Source: Cellulomonas shaoxiangyii
GTDB lineage: Bacteria > Actinomycetota > Actinomycetes > Actinomycetales > Cellulomonadaceae
DNA: 64,000 nt
Reading direction: 5' to 3'
Assembly (NCBI RefSeq): GCF_004798685.1
Contig: NZ_CP039291.1
Span: forward strand, 248,001-312,000
The position numbers were made by a program, and so were the translations under genes. The stretch's first letter is position 1, and every line of letters begins with the position of its first letter. Positions 48,629-63,958 of the stretch are shown here, piece by piece. Under the pieces are notes generated by a model. That model saw only the letters and a list, made by a program, of their open reading frames with translations, was not told the DNA's origin and ran no database searches.

Positions 48629-50149
48629 TTGTTCATCTTCATCCTGCAGATGCGGCACATGATCGAAGGCCCCCACCACGAGGTGTACCTCTTCGCGGTG
48701 TTCTCGGCCCTCGTCTGGGCCCTCTGGATCCTCAAGGTGGTGCTGTCCCGGCGCTACCGCCCCGTCACGGCGCCGTACGCCGTCGGCACGTCCGTCGTCG
48801 TCCCGGTCGTCGACGAGCCCCTCGAGCTGTTCCGCGACGTGCTCCGCCGCATCGTCGAGCAGCGCCCCGACGAGGTCATCGTCGTCATCAACGGCGCACC
48901 CAACCCCGACCTCGAGTCCGTCTGCGACGAGTTCGCACCCCTGGTCCAGCGCGTGCACACCCCCATCCCCGGCAAGCGCAACGCCGTGAAGATCGGCACC
49001 GAGATGTCGCGCGGGGAGATCACGGTGCTCGTCGACTCCGACACCGTCTGGACGGACGGCACGCTCGCCGAGCTGGTCAAGCCGTTCGCCGACGCGTCGG
49101 TCGGCGGCGTCACGACCCGCCAGCGCATCCTCGAGCCGAACCGCTCCTGGATCACCCGCTGGGCCGACTGGCTCGAGAACACCCGCGCCCTCTACTCGAT
49201 GCCGGCGCAGTCGGTCCTCGGGCAGATCGGCTGCCTCCCGGGGCGGACCATCGCGTTCCGCCGCCGCATCCTCGTGCAGGTCATGGACGCGTTCATGCAC
49301 GAGAAGTTCCTCGGCGTCTTCCTCGAGGTCTCGGACGACCGCACGCTGACGAACCTCACGCTCAAGGCCGGCTACCGCACGGTCTACCAGTACTCCAGCC
49401 TCGTCTACACCGACGCCCCGCTGCAGGTGAAGAAGCTGTTCAAGCAGCAGCTGCGCTGGTCGCGGGGCAGCCAGTACAACACCCTGCGGATGCTGCCCTG
49501 GATGCTCGGGCACGCACCCGTCCTGGCGATCTTCTTCCTCACCGACATCATCCTGCCGTTCCTGCTCTTCGGGACGATCGCCGGGTGGGTCTACCGCGCC
49601 GCCACCGGCACGGGCGTCAACCTCTACGAGGCGATCCTGCAGAGCGGCGCGGGCCTGCACGGCTGGGCGTGGGTCGTCGCGCTCATGATCGTGTCGTCGG
49701 TGCTGTCGATGGCGATCCGCCAGATCCGGCACCTGCAGGAGAAGCCCTCGGACTTCTTCCGCCTGCCCGTGTTCATCATCGTCTCGACGCTGTTCCTCAT
49801 GCCCATCCGGCTCATCGGCTTCTTCCGCATGGCGCACGTCGCCGGCTGGGGCACCCGGGCCGGCGCCTACACGGCGGGCCAGGAGGACAGCGTCGGCGAC
49901 GACCCCATGGCCGAGCTCGCGAGCACCCCCGGCGACGTCCCCGTCGACCTGGTCGACCGTGACGGCCCCCGCACGCCGGCGACCGGCACCCCGGCGCCGG
50001 GCACCGGTGACGGGCGCCTCGCGCTGCGGGCACCGGTCCGGCAGCGCACACGCGTCGAGCAGCCGCGCCGCACGCACAACCCCCTGGCCCTCGTCCCCTA
50101 CGCGATCGGGATCATGATGTTCGCACTCATGGCGGTGTTCTATGTCTGA
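48629..50149 (+). CDS. processive GT2 polysaccharide synthase (cassette 1)
   Basis: The 506-residue membrane glycosyltransferase starts at TTG with AGGAG about 6 nt upstream. The second copy has ATG at the equivalent place. Residues about 20-39 form the first transmembrane helix. The catalytic domain has VVVPVVDEP (donor site), the DxD motif at Asp136/Asp138 in LVDSDTVW, GCLPGRTIAFRR (about 201), EVSDDRTLTN with Asp236/237, and QQLRW at 273-277, the QxxRW of processive cellulose- and hyaluronan-type synthases. At least three more hydrophobic segments and a terminal one follow. The last codons overlap the GH26 start by 8 nt. The polymer is unknown; the adjacent ugd suggests UDP-glucuronate use. 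Confidence 0.9.
   Translation: MFIFILQMRHMIEGPHHEVYLFAVFSALVWALWILKVVLSRRYRPVTAPYAVGTSVVVPVVDEPLELFRDVLRRIVEQRPDEVIVVINGAPNPDLESVCDEFAPLVQRVHTPIPGKRNAVKIGTEMSRGEITVLVDSDTVWTDGTLAELVKPFADASVGGVTTRQRILEPNRSWITRWADWLENTRALYSMPAQSVLGQIGCLPGRTIAFRRRILVQVMDAFMHEKFLGVFLEVSDDRTLTNLTLKAGYRTVYQYSSLVYTDAPLQVKKLFKQQLRWSRGSQYNTLRMLPWMLGHAPVLAIFFLTDIILPFLLFGTIAGWVYRAATGTGVNLYEAILQSGAGLHGWAWVVALMIVSSVLSMAIRQIRHLQEKPSDFFRLPVFIIVSTLFLMPIRLIGFFRMAHVAGWGTRAGAYTAGQEDSVGDDPMAELASTPGDVPVDLVDRDGPRTPATGTPAPGTGDGRLALRAPVRQRTRVEQPRRTHNPLALVPYAIGIMMFALMAVFYV
48755..48999 (+). repeat. 245-bp identical block shared with the second GT2 gene (54161-54405)
   Basis: By eye, all 245 bases are identical to 54161-54405, including silent third positions. 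Bases on both sides of the block differ between copies. It covers the first half of the catalytic domain. Confidence 0.85.
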
Positions 50150-52040
50150 GCGCACCGGGAACCACTGGTGGACCATGACGGGCCGGCTGGGCTTCGCGGC
50201 CCGGCTCGGCGCCCTCGTCACGGCGCTCGCCCTCGGAGCCGTGACCGGCATCGTGTGGCTGTCCCCGTCGGGCGCGTCGCCCGGCAGCCCCAAGACCGAG
50301 GCCGAGCTGCGGCTCGAGCGCGAGGTCGCCGACCTCCAGGCCGTCCTCGCGGACCGTGACGACGAGCTCGCCGCGATCGAGCGCGGCCACACCAAGTCGG
50401 CGACCGAGCGCGCCGCGGGGGCCGAGCGCGGCAAGGCGAAGGCGGCGCAGGAGCGCGCCGCGGCGGCCGCCGCCGGCAAGGCGAAGGCGGCGGGCGACCA
50501 GGCCGCGTCCGCCGCGGCCGGCAGGGCGAAGGCGGCCGCCGAGCGTGCCGCCGCGGCCGAGGCCGGGCGCACCAAGGCCGCGGCCGAGCGTGCCGCCGCC
50601 GACCGGCGCGGCCAGCAGAAGGCGGCGCTCGAGCGCCAGCTCGCCGACGCGCGCGGAGCCGCCGAGGGTGCGGCGATCCGCGAGGCCGTGGCGCGCCAGG
50701 CGGCGGACGCGGCGGCGGCCGCCCGTGCGGCCCGTGAGGCGGCGGCCCGGCCGGTGAAGCCGACGGCCCCGTCGCTGGCGAGCCTGCTGCAGCCCGCGGA
50801 CCGGTACTTCGGCCTGTACACGCCGCAGTCGCCGTTCAACTGGGCCGAGGTCGACGACGTGGCAGGACAGGTCGGCGTCGCGCCCGACATGGCCGGCTAC
50901 TTCCAGGGCTGGGACACCCCGTTCCGGCCCGACGCGGTGACGCGCTCCTGGAGCAAGGGGATGCTGCCCATGCTCACGTGGGAGTCGCGCCCGATGGCCG
51001 CCGGCAACGACCAGGTCGACGAGCCCGAGTACGCGCTGCCGCGCATCATCGACGGCGCGTTCGACGAGTACCTGCGCCAGTACGCCCGTGAGATCCGGGA
51101 CCTCGGCCTGCCCATGGCGATCCGCCTGAACCACGAGATGAACGGCTCCTGGTACCCGTGGGCCGAGCAGGGCAGCCAGGGCGTGCCGATCAACGGCAAC
51201 CGCTCGGGCGACTTCGTGGCGATGTGGCGCCACGTGCACGACATCTTCGAGGCCGAGGGTGCGAACGCCCACGTCATCTGGGTGTGGGCGCCGAACATCG
51301 TCAACCGGCTCCCCGCGGTCAACCAGTCGCTCGAGTACACGCGGAGCCTGTACCCCGGCGACGAGTACGTCGACTGGGTGGGCCTGTCCGGCTACTTCCG
51401 CCCGCCGTACGCGGACGGTCAGCAGCCGACGTTCGACGACACGTTCGGGCGCTCGCTCACGCAGCTGCGGGCCATCACCTCCAAGCCCGTCGTCCTCGCG
51501 GAGATCGGGGCGTCGGAGAGCGGCGGGGAGAAGGGCGCGTGGGTCACGGACCTGTTCGACGCGCTCGCGCGTCCGGAGAACACGGACGTCATCGGCATGG
51601 CCTGGTTCCACCACTCCGTCACGACGATCACCGGTGGCGAGCGGGTGACGAACGACTGGCGGATCACGTCGCGGGCGGACTCCCAGGCCGCGTTCGTCGA
51701 GGGCATCCGTGACCCGGCGGCGAGGTTCCTGCCCGGTGCCCCGCTCGGTGCGGCGAGCACGCTCGCCGCACCCGCGGCCCGGCTCGCCGCGCCGGCCGAT
51801 CCGGTGGCGGCGGTGCTGGCCCCGGCCGAGCCCGCCCCCGCCGGGCCGGCCCCCGCCGAGCCCGCCCCGCTCCCGGGCGCACCGGCCGATCCGGCCCCGG
51901 CCGAGGCGCCCGCCGCCCCGGTGCAGGGCCCGCCCACGCCCGCCCCCGCGGGTCCCACGGCGACGCCGGCCCCGGCGTCCCCGACCCGCACGGACGGCCC
52001 GGCTCCCACGCCGACGCCGACCGTGTCGCGCACCCGATGA
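50142..52040 (+). CDS. membrane-anchored GH26 glycoside hydrolase with pentadecad stalk (cassette 1)
   Basis: The 632-residue type II protein has a cytoplasmic tail, one helix at about residues 21-40, and a helical Ala/Lys/Glu-rich stalk with six 15-residue repeats (76-165). The GH26 domain covers about 219-525, and a Pro/Ala-rich tail runs to the end. In GH26 the acid/base is Glu332 in NHEMNGSWYPW and the nucleophile is Glu454 in VLAEIGASE; both are present. GH26 enzymes cut beta-mannan, beta-1,3-xylan or mixed-linkage glucan, and the substrate here is unknown. The catalytic domain would sit outside the membrane on a stalk, near the synthase encoded by the overlapping gene upstream. Likely trims the polymer (inference). 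Confidence 0.88.
   Translation: MSERTGNHWWTMTGRLGFAARLGALVTALALGAVTGIVWLSPSGASPGSPKTEAELRLEREVADLQAVLADRDDELAAIERGHTKSATERAAGAERGKAKAAQERAAAAAAGKAKAAGDQAASAAAGRAKAAAERAAAAEAGRTKAAAERAAADRRGQQKAALERQLADARGAAEGAAIREAVARQAADAAAAARAAREAAARPVKPTAPSLASLLQPADRYFGLYTPQSPFNWAEVDDVAGQVGVAPDMAGYFQGWDTPFRPDAVTRSWSKGMLPMLTWESRPMAAGNDQVDEPEYALPRIIDGAFDEYLRQYAREIRDLGLPMAIRLNHEMNGSWYPWAEQGSQGVPINGNRSGDFVAMWRHVHDIFEAEGANAHVIWVWAPNIVNRLPAVNQSLEYTRSLYPGDEYVDWVGLSGYFRPPYADGQQPTFDDTFGRSLTQLRAITSKPVVLAEIGASESGGEKGAWVTDLFDALARPENTDVIGMAWFHHSVTTITGGERVTNDWRITSRADSQAAFVEGIRDPAARFLPGAPLGAASTLAAPAARLAAPADPVAAVLAPAEPAPAGPAPAEPAPLPGAPADPAPAEAPAAPVQGPPTPAPAGPTATPAPASPTRTDGPAPTPTPTVSRTR
50367..50636 (+). repeat. six 45-bp coding repeats (15-residue units) in GH26 copy 1
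   Basis: Six consecutive units align without gaps to the pattern AAAxxxGxxKAAxER. The repeat is in protein more than DNA. Each unit has Gly at position 7 and Lys at position 10. Confidence 0.8.
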
Positions 52041-52105
52041 GCCCCCGCAGCCCCGGTGCGGGCGCGTCCCCCGCGCCCGCACCCCTCGACACCCGGAGCG
52101 CCGCC

Positions 52106-53527
52106 ATGGCCACCACCAAGGTCCCCCGCACGACCCCTCGCCCCACCGACGAGCACGCCGTTCCCGCCCCGGAGCTCGCGCCGGCACCCGCCCCCGCGGA
52201 CGCTCCGCTCCGCATCACGGTGCTGGGCACCGGGTACCTGGGTGCGACGCACGCGGTGGCGATGGCGGAGCTGGGTTTCGACGTGACGGGGGTGGATACC
52301 GATCAGTCGAAGGTGGACGCCCTGGCGGCGGGGAAGGTGCCGTTCTTCGAGCCGGGGTTGGACGTGCTGCTGGAGAAGAACCTGGCCACGGGGCGGCTGC
52401 GGTTCACGACGGACGTGGCCTCGGCGGTCAGTCAGGGTGATGTGCACTTCGTGTGTGTGGGGACCCCGCAGCAGCGGACCTCGCACGCGGCGGACCTGCG
52501 GTTCGTGGAGGCCGCGACGAGCGCGATCGCGCGGCACCTGACCAAGGACGCGGTGATCGTGGGCAAGTCGACGGTGCCGGTGGGGACCGCGGCGCGGCTG
52601 CGGGAGCTGGTCGCGAGGGAGGCGCCGGCGGGGGTGGAGGCCGAGCTGGTGTGGAACCCGGAGTTCCTGCGGGAGGGCAAGGCCGTCGCGGACACCCTGC
52701 ACCCGGACCGGATCGTGCTCGGTGGGACGTCCCCGAAGGCGGAGGCCGTCCTCCGGACCGTCTATGCCGGTCCGATCGCCGAGGGCACCCCGGTGGTGGT
52801 GTGTGACCTGCCGACCGCGGAGCTGGTCAAGGTCAGTGCGAACGCGTTCCTGGCGACGAAGATCTCGTTCATCAACGCGATCGCGGGGGTCTGCGAGGCC
52901 GCCGGCGCGGACGTGACGGTCCTGGCCGACGCCCTCGGGCACGACGTGCGCATCGGGCGCCAGTTCCTCGACGCCGGGCTCGGGTTCGGCGGCGGGTGCC
53001 TGCCCAAGGACATCCGCGCGCTGATGCACCGCGCGAACGAGCTCGGCGCCTACCGGGCGTCGGCGCTGCTGCAGCAGGTCGACGAGATCAACATGGGCCA
53101 GCGTGAGCGGGTCATCGACCTGGCCCTGGCCGCGTGCGACGGGTCGGTGCTGAACAAGCGCGTCGGGGTCCTGGGTGCGGCGTTCAAGCCGCTGACCGAC
53201 GACGTGCGTGACTCCCCGGCGCTGAACGTCGCGGCGGCGTTGCACCTGCGCGGGGCGCAGGTCACGGTCTACGACCCCGAGGCCGGTGACACCGCGCGCC
53301 GGCTGTTCCCGACCCTGTCCTACGCGACCTCCGCGGAGGAGGCCGTCGAGGGCGCCGACGTCGTCCTGGTCCTGACCGAGTGGGACGAGTTCCTCACCGC
53401 CGACGCCGCGCGGCTGGCGCCGCTGACGCACCGGGCGAAGGTCATCGACGCCCGCGGCAAGCTCTCCGCGGACGCCTGGCGCGAGGCCGGGTGGCAGTTC
53501 ACCGGACTGGGGCGCGTCGCCGCCTGA
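52106..53527 (+). CDS. ugd: UDP-glucose 6-dehydrogenase (cassette 1)
   Basis: The 473-residue NAD-dependent enzyme oxidises UDP-glucose to UDP-glucuronate. After a Pro/Ala-rich tail of about 33 residues comes the Rossmann motif ITVLGTGYLGATHA (Gly41, 43, 46), then NPEFLREG, the catalytic Cys298 in GFGGGCLPKDI, and the C-terminal GAAFKPLTDDVRDSPAL. The start ATG has GGAG 7 nt upstream and gives exactly the length of the second copy. An earlier ATG at 52037 overlaps the GH26 stop (ATGA) and could be an alternative start adding 23 residues. The sequence from residue 31 to 430 is nearly identical to copy 2. Confidence 0.93.
   Translation: MATTKVPRTTPRPTDEHAVPAPELAPAPAPADAPLRITVLGTGYLGATHAVAMAELGFDVTGVDTDQSKVDALAAGKVPFFEPGLDVLLEKNLATGRLRFTTDVASAVSQGDVHFVCVGTPQQRTSHAADLRFVEAATSAIARHLTKDAVIVGKSTVPVGTAARLRELVAREAPAGVEAELVWNPEFLREGKAVADTLHPDRIVLGGTSPKAEAVLRTVYAGPIAEGTPVVVCDLPTAELVKVSANAFLATKISFINAIAGVCEAAGADVTVLADALGHDVRIGRQFLDAGLGFGGGCLPKDIRALMHRANELGAYRASALLQQVDEINMGQRERVIDLALAACDGSVLNKRVGVLGAAFKPLTDDVRDSPALNVAAALHLRGAQVTVYDPEAGDTARRLFPTLSYATSAEEAVEGADVVLVLTEWDEFLTADAARLAPLTHRAKVIDARGKLSADAWREAGWQFTGLGRVAA
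52196..53395 (+). repeat. 1200-bp near-identical block shared with ugd copy 2 (57794-58993)
   Basis: The two blocks align without an insertion or deletion, and most bases match. The sharp left edge falls where the variable N-terminal tails end. The last roughly 40 codons differ again. Confidence 0.85.
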
Positions 53528-53551
53528 CCACAGCCGCACCCGTACGACCGT

Positions 53552-53594
53552 GAGCGCGCGGTCCGGCCCCTCCCGGGGGTCGGGCCGCGCGCTC
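53552..53594 (+). terminator. strong terminator hairpin after cassette 1
   Basis: A 19-bp stem (53552-53570 with 53576-53594, two G-U pairs) and a 5-nt loop lie 25 nt after the ugd stop. It separates the two cassettes. Confidence 0.75.
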
Positions 53595-53705
53595 CTGCGT
53601 GGGTGGGCGCGGGCCCGACGCGGACGATCGCGCGCTGCACAACTCCGGACCGCCCGGCGCCGCGCTGGACGCCGGGATCGTCCCGGCCGCGGCCCGCCGG
53701 CGGGG

Positions 53706-53721
53706 TGAGACGTGCGTCACG
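53706..53721 (+). promoter_or_regulatory. CRP/GlxR-like site upstream of cassette 2
   Basis: TGAGACGTGCGTCACG fits TGTGA-N6-TCACA with two mismatches and shares 12 of 16 bases with the site upstream of cassette 1. It sits about 320 nt before the GT2 start. The rest of 53528-54037 is without a gene and contains a moderately AT-rich stretch near 53830-53850. Confidence 0.5.
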
Positions 53722-54037
53722 CGGGCCGTCGCGACGGGCGCCCCATCGGGGGAGGCGAACCGCGTCTGCGACCAGCGAATTCACCCCGTTGCCCGGCTTT
53801 GTCCAGGACGCGCGTCCAGAACGAGCGTTCACATCGAATTTTCCCTGGGCGCCTATCGCGGTGCGCGACGGGGCCTGCAAGGTGGGCTCGCACCACTGCA
53901 CCGGTGGCGCCGCATCCAGCGGCGCTACGGCCTCGAGGCCGTCGACCGCACGCACCGGGTCGACCCTCCGGACCACGCTCCTGCTGCGCGCCGATGACGC
54001 CGTCAGCTCATCCGCCACCGGCACCGCCAGGAGACCC

Positions 54038-55597
54038 ATGTTCATCTTCATCCTGCAGCTACGGCACATGCTCGAGGGCCAGAACGAGATCTACCTCTTC
54101 GCGGTCTTCTCGGCCCTCGTCTGGGCGCTCTGGATCCTCAAGGTCGTGCTGTCCCGGCGGTACCGCCCCGTCACGGCGCCGTACGCCGTCGGCACGTCCG
54201 TCGTCGTCCCGGTCGTCGACGAGCCCCTCGAGCTGTTCCGCGACGTGCTCCGCCGCATCGTCGAGCAGCGCCCCGACGAGGTCATCGTCGTCATCAACGG
54301 CGCACCCAACCCCGACCTCGAGTCCGTCTGCGACGAGTTCGCACCCCTGGTCCAGCGCGTGCACACCCCCATCCCCGGCAAGCGCAACGCCGTGAAGATC
54401 GGCACGCAGATGTCGCGCGGGGAGATCACGGTGCTCGTCGACTCCGACACGGTCTGGACCGAGAACACCCTGTCGGAGCTGGTCAAGCCGTTCGCGGACC
54501 CGTCGGTCGGCGGCGTCACGACGCGCCAGCGGATCCTCGAGCCGAACCGCTCCTGGATCACCCGCTGGGCCGACTGGCTCGAGAACACCCGCGCCCTCTA
54601 CTCCATGCCCGCGCAGTCGGTGCTGGGCCAGGTCGGCTGCCTGCCGGGCCGGACCATCGCGTTCCGCCGCCGCATCCTCATGCAGGTCATGGACGCGTTC
54701 ATGCACGAGAAGTTCCTCGGCGTCTTCCTCGAGGTCTCGGACGACCGCACGCTGACGAACCTCACGCTCAAGGCCGGCTACCGGACCGTGTACCAGTACA
54801 CGAGCCTCGTCTACACGGACGCCCCGCTGAAGATCAAGAAGCTCGCCAAGCAGCAGCTGCGCTGGGCCCGCGGGAGCCAGTACAACACCCTGCGGATGCT
54901 GCCCTGGATGGTCGGGCACGCACCCGTGCTGGCCGTCTTCTTCGTCACCGACATCCTGCTGCCGTTCCTGCTGTTCGGGACGATCGCGGGCTGGGTCTAC
55001 CGCGCCGCGTCCGGCACGGGCACGAACCTCTACGAGGCGATCCTGCAGAGCACGACCGAGCTGCAGGGCTGGGCGTGGGTGGTCGGCCTCATGATCGTGT
55101 CGTCGGTGCTGTCGATGGCGATCCGCCAGATCCGGCACCTGCAGGAGAAGCCCTCGGACTTCTTCCGCCTGCCCGTGTTCATCATCGTCTCGACGCTGTT
55201 CCTCATGCCGATCCGGCTGCTCGGCTTCTTCCGCATGGCGCACGTCGCCGGCTGGGGCACCCGGGCCGGCGCGTACACCGCCGGTCAGGACGGCGGCACC
55301 GACGCCGACCTGATGGCGGAGCTCGAGAGCGTCCGCGAGGCGGACGCCCCGGTCGACCTCGTCGACCGGACCCCGCCCGGCGGCACGCCCGTCGTCGCGG
55401 GCGCCGTCACCGGCCCCGCCGGTGCACCCGGTGCGAGCCCCGGCACGGCGCGGCTCGCGCTGCGCACCCGGGCCCGCGACCGCGCCCAGGTCCGCGGGGC
55501 GGTCCCCGCCCCACGCCCACGTCGCAACCCGCTCGCCCTCGTCCCCTACGCGATCGGACTCGCGATGTTCGCCCTCATGGCGGTGTTCTATGTCTGA
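54038..55597 (+). CDS. processive GT2 polysaccharide synthase (cassette 2)
   Basis: The 519-residue copy starts at an ATG with AGGAG 5 nt upstream (MFIFILQLRHMLEG). It has the same catalytic motifs as copy 1: LVDSDTVW (DxD), GCLPGRTIAFRR, EVSDDRTLTN and QQLRWARGSQYN. The transmembrane plan is also the same, including the conserved final hydrophobic segment NPLALVPYAIGLAMFALM. Compared with copy 1, one codon is lost near the start and the hydrophilic linker before the last helix is longer. The 245-bp block at 54161-54405 is identical to copy 1. The stop overlaps the GH26 start by 8 nt, exactly as in cassette 1. Confidence 0.9.
   Translation: MFIFILQLRHMLEGQNEIYLFAVFSALVWALWILKVVLSRRYRPVTAPYAVGTSVVVPVVDEPLELFRDVLRRIVEQRPDEVIVVINGAPNPDLESVCDEFAPLVQRVHTPIPGKRNAVKIGTQMSRGEITVLVDSDTVWTENTLSELVKPFADPSVGGVTTRQRILEPNRSWITRWADWLENTRALYSMPAQSVLGQVGCLPGRTIAFRRRILMQVMDAFMHEKFLGVFLEVSDDRTLTNLTLKAGYRTVYQYTSLVYTDAPLKIKKLAKQQLRWARGSQYNTLRMLPWMVGHAPVLAVFFVTDILLPFLLFGTIAGWVYRAASGTGTNLYEAILQSTTELQGWAWVVGLMIVSSVLSMAIRQIRHLQEKPSDFFRLPVFIIVSTLFLMPIRLLGFFRMAHVAGWGTRAGAYTAGQDGGTDADLMAELESVREADAPVDLVDRTPPGGTPVVAGAVTGPAGAPGASPGTARLALRTRARDRAQVRGAVPAPRPRRNPLALVPYAIGLAMFALMAVFYV
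54161..54405 (+). repeat. 245-bp identical block shared with the first GT2 gene
   Basis: This is the partner of 48755-48999. By eye it shows no differences, while flanking codons differ. Confidence 0.85.
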
Positions 55598-57545
55598 GCC
55601 CACGAGCACGCCCACCCGGCACTGGTGGACCCTCACGGGGCGGCTGGGCCTGGCCGCCCGGCTCGGTGCCCTCGTCCTCGCCCTCGCCCTGGGCGCCGTC
55701 AGCGGCATCGTGTGGCTCTCGCCCTCGGGCGCGGTCACGTCCGCCGAGAAGACCGAGCTCGAGAAGCAGCTCGAGCTGGAGAACGCCGACCTCAAGGCCG
55801 TCCTCGCGGACCGCGAGGACGAGCTGTCCGCCCTGGAACGCTCGCAGGCCAAGGCGAAGACCGAGCGGCAGGCGGCCGTCGAGCGGGGCCGCGAGAAGGG
55901 GGCCGCTGAGAAGGCGGCGGCCAAGGCCGCCGAGGAGCGCAGCGCGCAGAAGGCTGCCGCCGAGAAGACCGCGGCGGCCCAGCGCGGCAAGCAGAAGGCC
56001 GCCCGCGACAAGGCCGCGGCGGCCCAGCGCGGCAAGCAGAAGGCCTCGGGCGAGAAGGCGACTGCCGGCGCGCGGGCCAAGCAGCGGGCCGCCGCCGAGC
56101 GGGCCGAGGCCGAGCGCCGCACCGCGCAGAAGGTGTCGCTGGAGAAGCAGGCGGCCGACGCGCGAGGTGCGCTCGACGCCGCCCGGCAGGCCGCCGCGCA
56201 CGCCGCTGCGCTGGCCGCGGCCGAGAAGGCGCGCGGCGACGACCTGAGCGACCAGCTCAACAACCCGGCACCCAAGCCGCCGCCCGCGCCGGCGCCCAAG
56301 CCGGTGACGCCGTCCCTCGCCGAGCTCATCGCACCGAAGGACCGGTACTTCGGGATGTACACGACCCAGTCGCCGTTCAACTGGGCCGAGTTCGACGACA
56401 TCACGCGCAAGGTCCAGGCCACGCCCGACATGTCGGGGTACTTCCAGGGCTGGGACGGCGACTTCCGCCCGGACGCCGTCACGCGCTCGTGGCAGAAGGG
56501 CATGCTCCCGCTGCTCACGTGGGAGTCGCGGCCCATGAACGCCGCGAACGACCAGGCGATCGACCCGAACTACTCCCTGCCGGTCATCATCGGCGGGAAG
56601 TACGACGACTACCTGCGCAAGTACGCCCGCGACGTGGCCGCCCACGGCATGCCGCTCGCGATCCGCCTCAACCACGAGATGAACGGCTCCTGGTACCCGT
56701 GGGGCGAGCGCGAGTGGGGCGGCGGCCCGCTCAACGGCAACCGCAAGGGCGACTTCGTGAAGATGTGGCGCCACGTGCACGACATCTTCGAGGAGGAGGG
56801 CGCCAACGAGTACGTGCTGTGGGTCTGGGCGCCGAACATCGTCAACGCCCTGCCCGACTACGGCAAGAACTCCTCCTGGTACATGAAGTCGCTCTACCCG
56901 GGCGACGAGTACGTGGACTGGGTCGGCCTGTCCGGCTACTTCCGCCCGCCGTACCGCGCCGACCAGACGCCGACGTTCTCCTACACCTACGACCGCTCGC
57001 TCGGGCAGCTGCGGGAGATCACGGACAAGCCGATCCTGCTCGCGGAGATCGGGGCGTCGGAGGTCGGCAACCAGAAGCCGCAGTGGGTCGCGGACCTGTT
57101 CCGGGGCCTGGCCAGACCCGAGAACCAGGACATCATCGGCATCGCGTGGTTCCACCACACGGTGACGACGATCAGCGGGGGGCAGCGCGTCACGAACGAC
57201 TGGCGCATCAACTCCCGCGCCGACTCCCTCCGGGCGTTCGTCGACGGGATCCACGACCCGGCCGCCGGCTTCGGGTACGAACCGCTCGCGTCGCCGCTCG
57301 CGGCGGCGACGACGGAGGCCGCACCCGCGGCCCCCGCCGAGCCGGCCCCCGCGGCACCGGCGGCGCCGGTCCAGGGCCCGCCGGCACCGGCCGCGCCGTC
57401 GCCGACGACCACGTCCCCGCCCGCACCGGCGGCGCCCGTCCCGGCGGCCCCGGAACCGGCGCCCGCACCGGCCCCGGAGCCCACCCCGGAGCCGACGGTC
57501 GCGGCCCTGGCGCCCGCCGGCGCCACGCCGTCACCCACGCCCTGA
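55590..57545 (+). CDS. membrane-anchored GH26 glycoside hydrolase with pentadecad stalk (cassette 2)
   Basis: The 651-residue paralog has the same plan as copy 1: tail and helix (HWWTLTGRLGLAARLGALVL... with helix to about residue 43), then a Lys/Glu-rich stalk of 15-residue units from about residue 79 to 186 (one unit of 18). A Pro-rich hinge precedes the GH26 domain (about 250-560). Catalytic residues are Glu363 in NHEMNGSWYPW and Glu486 in LLAEIGASE. The Pro/Ala tail shares APVQGPP with copy 1. The N-terminal 40 residues are far better conserved between the copies than the stalk or tail, suggesting the helix contacts a conserved partner, probably the synthase. Confidence 0.88.
   Translation: MSEPTSTPTRHWWTLTGRLGLAARLGALVLALALGAVSGIVWLSPSGAVTSAEKTELEKQLELENADLKAVLADREDELSALERSQAKAKTERQAAVERGREKGAAEKAAAKAAEERSAQKAAAEKTAAAQRGKQKAARDKAAAAQRGKQKASGEKATAGARAKQRAAAERAEAERRTAQKVSLEKQAADARGALDAARQAAAHAAALAAAEKARGDDLSDQLNNPAPKPPPAPAPKPVTPSLAELIAPKDRYFGMYTTQSPFNWAEFDDITRKVQATPDMSGYFQGWDGDFRPDAVTRSWQKGMLPLLTWESRPMNAANDQAIDPNYSLPVIIGGKYDDYLRKYARDVAAHGMPLAIRLNHEMNGSWYPWGEREWGGGPLNGNRKGDFVKMWRHVHDIFEEEGANEYVLWVWAPNIVNALPDYGKNSSWYMKSLYPGDEYVDWVGLSGYFRPPYRADQTPTFSYTYDRSLGQLREITDKPILLAEIGASEVGNQKPQWVADLFRGLARPENQDIIGIAWFHHTVTTISGGQRVTNDWRINSRADSLRAFVDGIHDPAAGFGYEPLASPLAAATTEAAPAAPAEPAPAAPAAPVQGPPAPAAPSPTTTSPPAPAAPVPAAPEPAPAPAPEPTPEPTVAALAPAGATPSPTP
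55824..56147 (+). repeat. 45-bp coding repeats (15-residue units) in GH26 copy 2
   Basis: Seven units fill residues 79-186. Six are 15 residues and one is 18. Consensus is like copy 1, with a stretch of two adjacent near-identical units (AAAQRGKQKA). Confidence 0.78.
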
Positions 57546-57703
57546 CGGCCCCCCCGGCCGGCCGGCCGCGCCCACCGCGCGCCCGGTCGGCCGGGGCACC
57601 GGGCGCCCGCGCGCCCGTCGGACGCCCCGCGCGTCCCTCCGCTCTCGCCCGCCGGTCGTGCGTCTCCGCACGCCGGCGCCCCACCCCTACCCAGGGAGAC
57701 GCC

Positions 57704-59125
57704 ATGAAGAGCCTGCGCACCGCCGTCCGCCCGGACGCCCTCCCCACCCCCGACCTCGCCCCGACCTCGGCCCCGGATCTCGCCCCGCCCCCCGCGGACG
57801 CTCCGCTCCGCATCACGGTGCTGGGCACCGGTTACCTGGGTGCGACGCACGCGGTGGCGATGGCGGAGCTGGGTTTCGACGTGACGGGGGTGGATACCGA
57901 TCAGTCGAAGGTGGACGCGTTGGCGGCGGGGAAGGTCCCGTTCTTCGAGCCGGGGTTGGACGTGCTGCTGGAGAAGAACCTGGCCACGGGGCGGCTGCGG
58001 TTCACGACGGACGTGGCGTCGGCGGTGTCGCAGGGTGATGTGCACTTCGTGTGTGTGGGCACTCCGCAGCAGCGGACCTCGCACGCGGCGGACCTGCGGT
58101 TCGTGGAGGCCGCGACGAGCGCGATCGCGCGGCACCTGACCAAGGACGCGGTGATCGTGGGCAAGTCGACGGTGCCGGTGGGGACCGCGGCGCGCCTGCG
58201 GGAGCTGGTGGCCCGTGAGGCGCCGGCGGGGGTGGAGGCGGAGCTGGTGTGGAACCCGGAGTTCCTGCGGGAGGGCAAGGCGGTGGCGGACACCCTGCAC
58301 CCGGACCGGATCGTGCTGGGCGGGGTCTCGGCCAGGGCGGAGGCGACGCTGCGCAGGGTCTATGCCGGTCCGATCGGCGAGGGCACGCCGGTGGTGGTGT
58401 GTGACCTGCCGACCGCGGAGCTGGTGAAGGTGTCGGCGAACGCGTTCCTGGCGACGAAGATCTCGTTCATCAACGCGATCGCGGGGGTCTGCGAGGCCGC
58501 CGGCGCGGACGTCACGGTCCTGGCCGACGCCCTCGGGCACGACGTGCGCATCGGGCGCCAGTTCCTGGACGCCGGGCTCGGGTTCGGCGGCGGGTGCCTG
58601 CCCAAGGACATCCGCGCGCTGATGCACCGCGCGAACGAGCTCGGCGCCTACCGGGCGTCGGCGTTGTTGCAGCAGGTCGACGAGATCAACATGGGCCAGC
58701 GTGAGCGGGTCATCGACCTGGCCCTGGCCGCGTGCGACGGGTCGGTCCTGAACAAGCGCGTCGGGGTCCTGGGGGCGGCGTTCAAGCCGTTGACCGACGA
58801 CGTGCGTGACTCCCCGGCGCTGAACGTGGCCGCGGCGTTGCACCTGCGCGGGGCGCAGGTCACGGTCTACGACCCCGAGGCCGGTGACACCGCGCGCCGG
58901 CTGTTCCCGACCCTGTCCTACGCGACCTCCGCCGAGGAGGCCGTCGAGGGCGCCGACGTCGTCCTGGTCCTGACCGAGTGGGACGAGTTCCTCCAGGTCG
59001 ACCCGGCGGCCCTCGCGCCGCTGACCGCCAGCCCTCGCCTCATCGACGCCCGCGGCAAGCTCGCGGCCGACGCGTGGCGCGCCGCGGGCTGGCAGTTCAC
59101 GGGTCTGGGACGCGTCGCCGCCTGA
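57704..59125 (+). CDS. ugd: UDP-glucose 6-dehydrogenase (cassette 2)
   Basis: The 473-residue enzyme has the same catalytic features as copy 1 (VLGTGYLGATHA, NPEFLREG, GFGGGCLPKDI, AAFKPLTDDVRDSP). The ATG has GGGAG 5 nt upstream and follows a 158-nt gap after GH26 (unlike cassette 1, where the genes nearly touch). The first 30 residues differ from copy 1, and the catalytic body is nearly identical with no gaps. Substitutions cluster around residues 208-226 and the last 40 residues. A terminator at 59156-59191 follows, shared with the convergent pgm gene. The product supplies UDP-glucuronate for the synthases (inference from context). Confidence 0.93.
   Translation: MKSLRTAVRPDALPTPDLAPTSAPDLAPPPADAPLRITVLGTGYLGATHAVAMAELGFDVTGVDTDQSKVDALAAGKVPFFEPGLDVLLEKNLATGRLRFTTDVASAVSQGDVHFVCVGTPQQRTSHAADLRFVEAATSAIARHLTKDAVIVGKSTVPVGTAARLRELVAREAPAGVEAELVWNPEFLREGKAVADTLHPDRIVLGGVSARAEATLRRVYAGPIGEGTPVVVCDLPTAELVKVSANAFLATKISFINAIAGVCEAAGADVTVLADALGHDVRIGRQFLDAGLGFGGGCLPKDIRALMHRANELGAYRASALLQQVDEINMGQRERVIDLALAACDGSVLNKRVGVLGAAFKPLTDDVRDSPALNVAAALHLRGAQVTVYDPEAGDTARRLFPTLSYATSAEEAVEGADVVLVLTEWDEFLQVDPAALAPLTASPRLIDARGKLAADAWRAAGWQFTGLGRVAA
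57794..58993 (+). repeat. 1200-bp near-identical block shared with ugd copy 1
   Basis: This is the partner of 52196-53395 at a constant offset of 5598 bp, with no indels seen. Confidence 0.85.
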
Positions 59126-59216: not shown

Positions 59217-60902
<1,686 letters not shown>

Positions 60903-61047
60903 GCGCCGATCCTCCCGCACGGGAGGGGCGCGCCGCACCCGGTCGGGCGTGCGTCCAACGCCGACACGTCGGGCCGGGCGTGATGTCCGCCGGCGGCGCA
61001 CGCGCCGTGCGGCGGTCTGCGCGCCCCGGACGGAACGGCGTGCGAGC

Positions 61048-63123: not shown

Positions 63124-63129
63124 TAGGGT
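63124..63129 (+). promoter_or_regulatory. candidate -10 for leaderless GT2 gene
   Basis: TAGGGT lies 7 nt before the GTG at 63137. It supports that start over the GTG at 63128, which would overlap this element. Confidence 0.45.
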
Positions 63130-63136
63130 GGGAGCC

Positions 63137-63958
63137 GTGACACCCACGGGGAGCGAGGCCGGCCGCAGCCAGGAGAAGGCCGTCGAGAGCCGCCCCCGCG
63201 GGCCCCGGCAGCGTCAGCGCGTCGCCGTGATCATCCCGGCGAAGGACGAGTCCCGGCGCATCGCCGCGACCGTCCGCTCCGCGCGCGCCATCCCGCACGT
63301 CGACCTCGTCCTCGTGGTCGACGACGGGTCGGAGGACAACACGCAGCACGTCGCGCGTGAGGCCGGTGCGGTCGTCGTGCGGCACTCCCACAACCGCGGC
63401 AAGGCGGCCGCCATGGAGACGGGCGCCGCGGTCGTCGCGATGCGCGACGCGCCGGACCGCCTGCCCCGCATGCTCCTCTTCATCGACGGCGACCTCGGCG
63501 ACACGGCCGTCAACACCGCGCCGCTGGTCGCGCCCGTCCTCGACGGCGTCACGGACCTCACGATCGCCCTGCTGCCGCCGCAGCCCGGTGCCGGCGGCCG
63601 CGGGCTCGTCGTCGGCGCCGCGCGCCGGGCGATCGTCTCGATGACGGGGTGGACGCCGACGCAGCCGCTGTCCGGCATGCGGTGCCTCACGCGCGCGGCG
63701 TTCGAGGCGGCGACGCCGCTCGCCCGCGGGTGGGGCGTCGAGGTCGGCATGACCATCGACCTGCTGCGGCAGGGCTACCGCGTGCTCGAGGTGCCCTGCG
63801 ACCTGCGGCACCGTCCGTCCGGCACGGACCTCAAGGGCCAGCTGCACCGGGCCGCGCAGTACCGCGACGTGCAGATCGCGGTCAACGCCCGCCGCGCGCG
63901 CTCGGCGGCGTCGTCGGTGCGTCGGACGCTGACGCCGGGGGAGCGCCCGGTCCGCTGA
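63137..63958 (+). CDS. family 2 glycosyltransferase, soluble type
   Basis: The 273-residue protein has a basic N-terminus of about 30 residues, then the GT-A domain: VAVIIPAKDESRRIAATV, LVLVVDDGSEDNTQHVAREAGA with the DDGS motif, RHSHNRGKAAAMETGA, LLFIDGDLGDT as the DxD-like site, and later SGMRCLTRAAFEA. The fold resembles glucosyl-3-phosphoglycerate synthase and dolichol-phosphate mannosyltransferase-type enzymes. No transmembrane segments. The acceptor and donor are not predictable. The gene lies 106 nt after the DUF5926-type gene and ends 42 nt before the window's right edge. Confidence 0.88.
   Translation: MTPTGSEAGRSQEKAVESRPRGPRQRQRVAVIIPAKDESRRIAATVRSARAIPHVDLVLVVDDGSEDNTQHVAREAGAVVVRHSHNRGKAAAMETGAAVVAMRDAPDRLPRMLLFIDGDLGDTAVNTAPLVAPVLDGVTDLTIALLPPQPGAGGRGLVVGAARRAIVSMTGWTPTQPLSGMRCLTRAAFEAATPLARGWGVEVGMTIDLLRQGYRVLEVPCDLRHRPSGTDLKGQLHRAAQYRDVQIAVNARRARSAASSVRRTLTPGERPVR

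Follow-up and report, generated by a model that had tools for sequence, protein, structure and literature searches.

Bacterial has operons pair a hyaluronan synthase with a UDP-glucose 6-dehydrogenase (UGDH), and cellulose BcsZ, alginate AlgL and the hydrolases of the Pel, Psl and poly-N-acetylglucosamine systems are encoded beside their synthases, belong to families other than glycoside hydrolase family 26 (GH26) and act in Gram-negative envelopes. Cps3D is the UGDH of the pneumococcal type 3 capsule, in whose locus we know of no GH26, and the GH26 enzyme CtLic26A is a secreted degradative enzyme. The type 3 synthase, Cps3S, makes a polymer of glucose and glucuronate, as passages of PMC3912152 describe. 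In Actinoplanes missouriensis, excerpts of PMC13390465 place a GH26 protein, WpsE, within the exopolysaccharide cluster wps-1 and report it as required for normal sporangia, and its authors state that they knew of no previously characterised Wzx/Wzy cluster containing a GH26; RiGT2 of Romboutsia ilealis is presented in the parts of PMC10374906 concerned with it as a mixed-linkage glucan synthase. Here we describe two gene cassettes in a 64,000-nucleotide window (the whole stretch of DNA analysed; 76% GC) of Cellulomonas shaoxiangyii, the genome of which is one 3.9 Mb contig. Each cassette encodes a glycosyltransferase of family 2 (GT2), a GH26 protein and a UGDH. We propose, as a reading that stands about evenly between holding and failing, that this triad is a self-contained synthase-dependent exopolysaccharide system, in which GT2 would extrude a beta-1,3/1,4-linked, glucuronate-containing chain and a tethered GH26 would cut it.

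The two cassettes lie in line on the + strand (48629-53527 and 54038-59125; Table 1). Their coordinates bear out the initial annotation of this DNA, which had described the same-strand three-gene order twice with the same 8-nt overlap of the GT2 and GH26 genes, and Pfam matches and motif positions agree with its further claim of a matching protein plan and matching catalytic motifs in both. The layout is beyond chance because gene order and overlap recur across genera: among the 79 loci in which both genes were found, the overlap is exactly 8 nt in 65, 14 nt in five, 17 nt in four and 20 nt in one, with the remaining four (GH26 start choices of -7 twice, -185 and 1314), which look like start-choice or frame artefacts, counted as "not 8". 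The 8-nt overlap is likely to couple translation of the synthase to that of the hydrolase.

Conservation of the triad was followed from both ends. A scan of the genome collection with a GH26 alignment, from which the best 80 of 126 loci were kept, gave together with six new loci from a GT2-first search 86 distinct GH26 loci, belonging to Microbacteriaceae (38), Cellulomonadaceae (35) and Promicromonosporaceae (2), with 11 that carry no family. GT2 lies upstream of GH26 in all 77 loci with at least 2.4 kb of room, and UGDH lies downstream in 71 of the 75 with at least 2.5 kb of room, a count that takes in one locus (L059) where the aligned GH26 and UGDH ends overlap by 3 nt (70 by script). Beyond the triad, every protein cluster is confined to at most 26 of 99 loci; genes were called with a home-made program and clustered by single linkage, and the 99 include 12 repeats and many loci truncated at contig ends. 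The unit is conserved while its flanks change.

The GT2-first control searched 121 genomes of the family and 119 of the order for GT2 at E 1e-100 or better. GT2 was found in 18 of the former, in single copy except in C. shaoxiangyii, which has two, and in three of the latter, C. shaoxiangyii included; its presence is patchy even inside the genus (6 of the 10 members listed). Nineteen other loci were fetched, 12 of them from genomes already in the GH26-first set; these 12 and L102, which ends at a contig end without GH26, were left out of the counts above. GH26 adjoins GT2 in 18 of the 19, the nineteenth being truncated at a contig end; UGDH comes next in 13 of the 15 with room. A dedicated three-gene system had been claimed for this DNA, with GT2 homologues standing mostly without GH26 or UGDH named as the finding that would speak against it; the outcome favours a dedicated system, which is well supported and, in our view, nearly certain. 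A phylum-wide GT2 search, weak in that each listed genome had three scored candidates, matched one of 396 genomes at E 1e-60, that of C. shaoxiangyii alone. Multiple copies occur elsewhere, with two loci each in Leifsonia poae and Lacisediminihabitans changchengi and a tandem GT2-GH26-UGDH-GT2-GH26 arrangement in Cellulosimicrobium cellulans (L033, 6359-14736).

Both GT2 copies match the Pfam family Glyco_tranf_2_3 (88.9 and 88.5 bits), and the motifs of the second copy, GT2b, are DSDT from residue 135, SDDR from 234, QQLRW at 272-276 and WGTR at 406-409. Across a set of 81 proteins, namely the two window copies and 79 relatives, strict patterns found the DxD, DDR, QxxRW and WGT motifs together in 79, the other two being without the strict DSDT. 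Hydropathy, the sole basis of this prediction, gives five membrane segments in 75 of the 81, both window copies among them: one at the N-terminus, three behind the catalytic domain and one C-terminal segment past a variable tail. The PilZ domain that would mark c-di-GMP control of the BcsA type was found on neither GT2 copy (Pfam, E 0.001).

The two GH26 copies match Glyco_hydro_26 (PF02156) at 53.1 and 51.5 bits against a cut-off of 20.2, and the two catalytic glutamates, acid/base and nucleophile, are invariant across 14 aligned GH26 proteins, which places them in the family. The catalytic domain begins near residue 220 in GH26a (Glu332 and Glu454) and near residue 251 in GH26b (Glu363 and Glu486), and both proteins end in a Pro/Ala-rich tail. 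Among the relatives, the acid/base Glu is visible in those that fail the strict pattern (L082 has Gln instead of His before it); the strict nucleophile pattern is missed in 13 of the 81 proteins, ten of which show a Glu-bearing variant (e.g. AEMGASE, TEIGASE), and in L038, L047 and L048 the nucleophile Glu is not visible in the GH26 segment inspected. Against solved structures the GH26 profile scores 116.3 bits with endoglucanase H, the next kinds being YdhT (42.6 bits) and a named beta-1,4-mannanase (41.6 bits). We take the endoglucanase H entry (PDB 2bv9 and others) to be the lichenase CtLic26A. A mannanase reading was rejected on this similarity, by which GH26 belongs nearest to the lichenase branch and not to the mannanases; in the phylogeny given in passages of PMC6556568, the lichenase branch holds just two sequences and is separate from the mannanases. 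The nearest named relatives of the window GH26 proteins come from Cellulomonas.

An N-terminal hydrophobic helix is predicted in 80 of the 81 GH26 proteins, and the stalk that follows spans 111-269 residues (median 154, n = 78 measured). The initial annotation had described a membrane-anchored GH26 on a rod of 15-residue repeats; the predicted anchor proved to be general, and the rod holds for both window copies but is not a feature of the system. In these two copies the 15-residue period exceeds that of shuffled stalks (lag-15 identity 0.44 vs a 95% null of 0.29, and 0.29 vs 0.23). Among the 61 of 79 relatives in which it could be tested, the others having a stalk too short for the test or a domain whose start was not recognised, it ranks first among the significant periods in 13, all from a single GH26 clade that also includes members without it (L008, L011 and L012), and it comes out on top in none of the Microbacteriaceae stalks among those tested. 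Since the anchor is general and the rod is confined to one clade, anchor and spacer are the conserved part and the rod is a local style.

Two other GH26 proteins were noted. One of this family from Cellulomonas sp. ACRRI (P0070) is listed with a C-terminal FHA domain, which could reflect a fusion or else an error of frame or annotation. C. shaoxiangyii itself holds a third GH26 away from the cassettes (G000:C1:845235-846044), which lies in an open frame of 1592 aa, matches Pfam strongly at 177.5 bits and may be a secreted mannanase of the usual kind.

Both UGDH copies carry the three UDPG_MGDP_dh domains of Pfam and, among solved enzymes, score highest with UDP-glucose dehydrogenase (344 bits), followed by GDP-mannose dehydrogenase (196) and UDP-ManNAcA dehydrogenase (140). 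By domains and closest kin they are UDP-glucose 6-dehydrogenases, although their scores do not reach the equivalog cut-offs of TuaD and AglM. Their translations contain the motif GGGC, which is presumably catalytic.

Gene order, overlap, families, motifs, the predicted anchor and conservation are read from the sequence, and from them we infer polymer chemistry, extrusion, cutting and purpose. UGDH would make UDP-glucuronate for the synthase. GT2 would polymerise UDP-sugars at the inner membrane face and, in the manner of hyaluronan synthase, use its own membrane helices as the path by which the chain is extruded. GH26, held outside by its single N-terminal helix and stalk, would cut the emerging chain, which could set chain length, free the chain or clear stalled chains. 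As the nearest relative of GH26 is a lichenase, the chain would most likely be beta-1,3/1,4-linked and glucose-rich with glucuronate. Glucuronate is probably part of the polymer, and a beta-1,3/1,4 chain cut by GH26 is a proposal with comparable chances of being right or wrong. In plan, the polymer most likely comes closest to that of type 3 pneumococci, in which beta-1,3 and beta-1,4 linkages also occur, and not to hyaluronan, and the UGDH partner of a type 3-like system is present in the 71 of 75 loci noted above.

Several observations weigh against this reading. UGDH was not found in four of the 75 loci with room (L009, L032, L045 and L106) and is therefore less constant than GH26, and C. 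shaoxiangyii holds two further UGDH-like genes. GT2b is only 24-30% identical to NodC, its nearest named family (27-30% in annotated plasmid matches). The hyaluronan synthase residues H174, R256, Y299, G300, S345 and R348 are not conserved at the aligned places in GT2 (here and below, mapped by local alignment, with chain numbering one ahead of that in the papers), and the pair that holds glucuronate in the hyaluronan synthase CvHAS, K177 and R341, is present in NodC as well. Because NodC, which uses N-acetylglucosamine, has the same Lys and Arg, the pair does not discriminate, and glucuronate use is not proven by sequence. All lichenase chains matched by GH26 are of one enzyme, and the GH26 family is described, in excerpts of PMC13390465, as mainly mannanase.

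One alternative is a neutral product, a mixed-linkage or other beta-glucan, in which case UGDH would be linked for side chains or cell-wall uronate and GH26 would trim or recycle a uronate-free glucan. We consider this unlikely, although lichenase as the nearest GH26 relative would suit it, as would the loci in which a GT2-GH26 pair is followed by no UGDH. These are an Actinotalea locus (L009, with 3.4 kb to the contig end), one of the two L. poae copies (L045) and L106; L032, from a metagenome-assembled genome (MAG), lacks UGDH too but is cut upstream. In L106 (7167-12470), an acyltransferase-SGNH gene lies upstream of GT2, which is about 60% identical, GH26 is divergent (36% identical), and no UGDH was found within 7 kb after; in Cellulosimicrobium L033, the 2.8 kb read beyond the second GT2-GH26 pair contain no UGDH. 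A parallel comes from the Deinococcus taeanensis plasmid p_TS293_4 (L116:2714-6795), where GH16, a hypothetical protein, GT2 and a lichenase-type GH26 are encoded in a row with no UGDH among the listed genes; its GT2 differs from that of the cassettes, being nearest to PgaC but below the cut-off, and the row is possibly a neutral mixed-linkage glucan cassette. As a further case of a synthase paired with a lichenase-type GH26, it also counts in favour of the main reading. What stands against a neutral glucan is the constant place of UGDH, which follows closely in 71 of 75 loci and would hardly do so without shared use.

A second alternative, which we regard as distinctly improbable, is that GT2 is a hyaluronan- or heparosan-like synthase joining N-acetylglucosamine and glucuronate, and that GH26 has drifted to a hyaluronidase-like role. 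The best solved relatives of GT2 are indeed hyaluronan synthases, which lead the matches of its family profile in the PDB (8smm, E 2.4e-20; CvHAS, 5e-19) and score 66-76 bits with GT2b and the family profile; an adjoining UGDH and the gating motif WGTR recall the has operons and CvHAS, respectively. Of the residues discussed for hyaluronan synthases in passages of PMC12987647 and PMC11750622, GT2 keeps K177, D201, D203, C267, D302, R303, R341, W342 and the gating-loop WGTR at aligned places, but not the six listed above: SDDR replaces the invariant GDDR (CvHAS 300-303), Val stands at 299 and R348 falls in an alignment gap. A strict class I hyaluronan synthase was rejected on these differences. 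NodC membership is likewise not indicated, the NCBIfam model TIGR04242 giving 99.3 and 106.6 bits against a cut-off of 550. The best reading of these comparisons is that GT2 resembles a hyaluronan synthase but is not one. The hydrolase also speaks against a glycosaminoglycan, since the GH26 activities named in the parts of PMC6556568 that treat them are on mannan, xylan and mixed glucan, and none is on glycosaminoglycans.

That GH26 is a surface guard or scavenger, for instance against foreign or plant beta-glucan, and merely co-expressed, as the plant association of some hosts might suggest (e.g. Curtobacterium from Medicago seed coat, plasmid pTCL), is very unlikely in view of the recurrent 8-nt overlap with the synthase gene (65/79), the N-terminal anchor (80/81) and the GT2 found upstream wherever the contig allowed (77/77, from the best 80 of 126 loci).

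The two cassettes do not share a single history. Codon-aligned nucleotide identity between copies a and b is 88.9% for GT2, 71.5% for GH26 and 92.3% for UGDH. In trees of 18-19 rows each, UGDHa and UGDHb are sisters (support 99/96), GH26a clusters with C. telluris and a Cellulomonas MAG, and GH26b sits in the opposite half, among sequences from C. massiliensis, Actinotalea and Root930. Forcing the two GH26 copies together costs 87.6 log-likelihood units (approximately unbiased (AU) test, p 5e-168; the pairing tested was that claimed earlier, and the FastTree tree had been inspected beforehand), and the best GT2 tree separates the copies without rejecting sisterhood (AU p 0.265). The earlier description of the cassette as tandem-duplicated, in the sense of a simple recent duplication, is thus rejected for GH26. 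In windowed comparisons, UGDH and GT2 show tracts of 98-100% nucleotide identity among tracts of 80-94% (lower in the GT2 tail), with 95-100% identity at third positions of unchanged residues in the near-identical tracts, and GH26 stays at 58-82%. Near-identical tracts in GT2 and UGDH beside a divergent GH26 are the pattern expected where gene conversion acts between cassettes that differ partly in origin, and not from one recent duplication. Judged from trees and tracts, the cassettes are a patchwork, in which GH26 genes of different ancestry accompany UGDH and GT2 genes that bear conversion-like tracts.

The Curtobacterium plasmid pTCL, typed as non-mobilizable, carries a full triad with 8-nt and 4-nt overlaps under generic labels only. 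Together with the patchy presence of GT2, the triad on a plasmid suggests that the unit may be able to move. Ten plasmid records had a GH26 match, of which six were examined, pTCL and the Deinococcus plasmid among them. On the Arthrobacter, Pseudarthrobacter and Halococcus plasmids, where gene tables are incomplete and GH26 is more distant, no synthase is listed within about 6 kb of GH26, and in the unannotated Acetoanaerobium plasmid stretch none of six open reading frames of at least 150 aa looked synthase-like by eye. The second cassette had no match in 50,697 phage records, searched by megablast only, which gives a phage origin no support. Separately, an Enterococcus faecium plasmid (L112:4672-7089) encodes a nucleotide sugar dehydrogenase and, after it, a GT2 resembling NodC and hyaluronan synthases (WGTR, GDDR) that is labelled just glycosyltransferase, and GT2 matches similar to it lie on Lactococcus plasmids.

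A second synthase locus in the C. shaoxiangyii genome (G000:C1:3145950-3152275; L118:5951-12276) encodes GT2, two right-handed beta-helix proteins and UGDH, the GT2 and UGDH being 31-34% and 59% identical to their cassette counterparts. Its GT2 gene overlaps the first beta-helix gene by 4 nt, and the product of the latter is, by eye, hydrophobic at its N- and C-terminal stretches; the second beta-helix protein, weakly chondroitinase B-like but below the cut-off, is followed by UGDH. The locus shares the cassette design, with a different fold between synthase and UGDH, a parallel that counts in favour of the main reading; by plan, its product would be alginate- or glycosaminoglycan-like. This GT2 occurs in 8 of the 121 family genomes, among which C. 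shaoxiangyii alone has both GT2 kinds.

Within the window (Table 1), GT2a starts with TTG where GT2b has ATG at the aligned place, and taking the ATG at 57704 as the start of UGDHb leaves a gap of 158 nt after GH26b, against the 4-nt overlap of cassette a, a difference on which the initial annotation is silent. The phosphoglucomutase gene downstream (TIGR01132, above cut-off) lies outside the conserved unit and could plausibly supply UDP-glucose; in 10 loci a cluster of opposite-strand proteins, comparable in length and position, may represent this gene. A small GT2 at 63128-63958, beside a DUF5926 gene, is weakly like glucosyl-3-phosphoglycerate synthase and AglJ, below the cut-offs.

Table 1. 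Positions of the cassette genes and the adjoining phosphoglucomutase gene in the window.
Feature	Position	Strand	Description
GT2a	48629..50149	+	processive-type GT2, 506 aa; 5 predicted transmembrane (TM) segments; motifs DSDT / SDDR / QxxRW / WGTR
GT2a/GH26a 8-nt overlap	50142..50149	+	
GH26a	50142..52040	+	632 aa; TM anchor aa 16-34; Ala-rich stalk, 15-residue period
UGDHa	52037..53527	+	UDP-glucose 6-dehydrogenase type, 496 aa; overlaps GH26a by 4 nt
GT2b	54038..55597	+	519 aa; 5 predicted TM segments
GT2b/GH26b 8-nt overlap	55590..55597	+	
GH26b	55590..57545	+	651 aa; TM anchor aa 25-43; stalk; closest solved structure endoglucanase H
UGDHb	57704..59125	+	473 aa; sister of UGDHa
phosphoglucomutase	59217..60908	-	TIGR01132, above cut-off; outside the conserved unit

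If the proposed reading is true, dozens of Micrococcales share a three-gene acidic polysaccharide system, whose very small plan couples the making and cutting of a polymer across one membrane. It would offer a compact test bed for the setting of chain length, bacteria of soil and plants might serve as a source of a polymer like hyaluronan or the type 3 capsule, and labels that these proteins carry, such as "mannan endo-1,4-beta-mannosidase" and "glycosyl hydrolase", would be read differently. Going further, we suggest tentatively, as a picture more likely wrong than right, that the cassettes represent a class of exopolysaccharide systems of Gram-positive bacteria which has yet to be named and has spread between Micrococcales. 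Here a synthase and a moored lichenase-type GH26 would be made as a coupled pair and the chain cut on exit, so that an acidic beta-1,3/1,4 glucuronoglucan is released at a set length; cassettes would have swapped their GH26 modules while gene conversion kept synthase and UGDH alike, such that one cell could make two grades of one polymer.

Among described systems, the class I hyaluronan synthases (CvHAS, XlHAS1) share with the cassette a processive GT2, the DxD, DDR, QxxRW and WGT(R) motifs and a UGDH partner, whereas the cassette differs by SDDR, by several lost hyaluronan synthase residues and by a hydrolase gene between synthase and UGDH. The type 3 capsule, compared by plan, resembles it in that one GT2 with UGDH is in principle enough, and in the proposed layout of the polymer from beta-glucose and beta-glucuronate. 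Systems of the BcsZ and AlgL type have in common with it a hydrolase gene beside the synthase gene; in the cassette the hydrolase is a membrane-anchored GH26, its gene overlaps that of the synthase, the hosts are Gram-positive and PilZ is absent. CtLic26A, the best solved match, shares the catalytic domain, to which the cassette GH26 adds an N-terminal membrane anchor and linkage to a synthase. The wps-1 cluster also places a GH26 within an exopolysaccharide cluster, but its predicted pathway is Wzx/Wzy-dependent and the excerpts of its description give no GT2-GH26-UGDH triad. RiGT2, compared by description, is likewise a Gram-positive GT2 and makes beta-1,3;1,4 chains, and the term "GH26" is absent from the main text of PMC10374906. 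Of two genome papers on related hosts, as far as their relevant passages go, that on Cellulomonas fimi assigns GH26 to the breakdown of mannan and takes up GT2 in the context of curdlan synthesis (PMC3544764), and that on Cellulosimicrobium covers levan only (PMC8325422). No description of the triad was found in the portions of the open-licence PubMed Central literature covered by our search. We class the cassettes with the synthase-dependent exopolysaccharide systems that have a built-in glycosidase.

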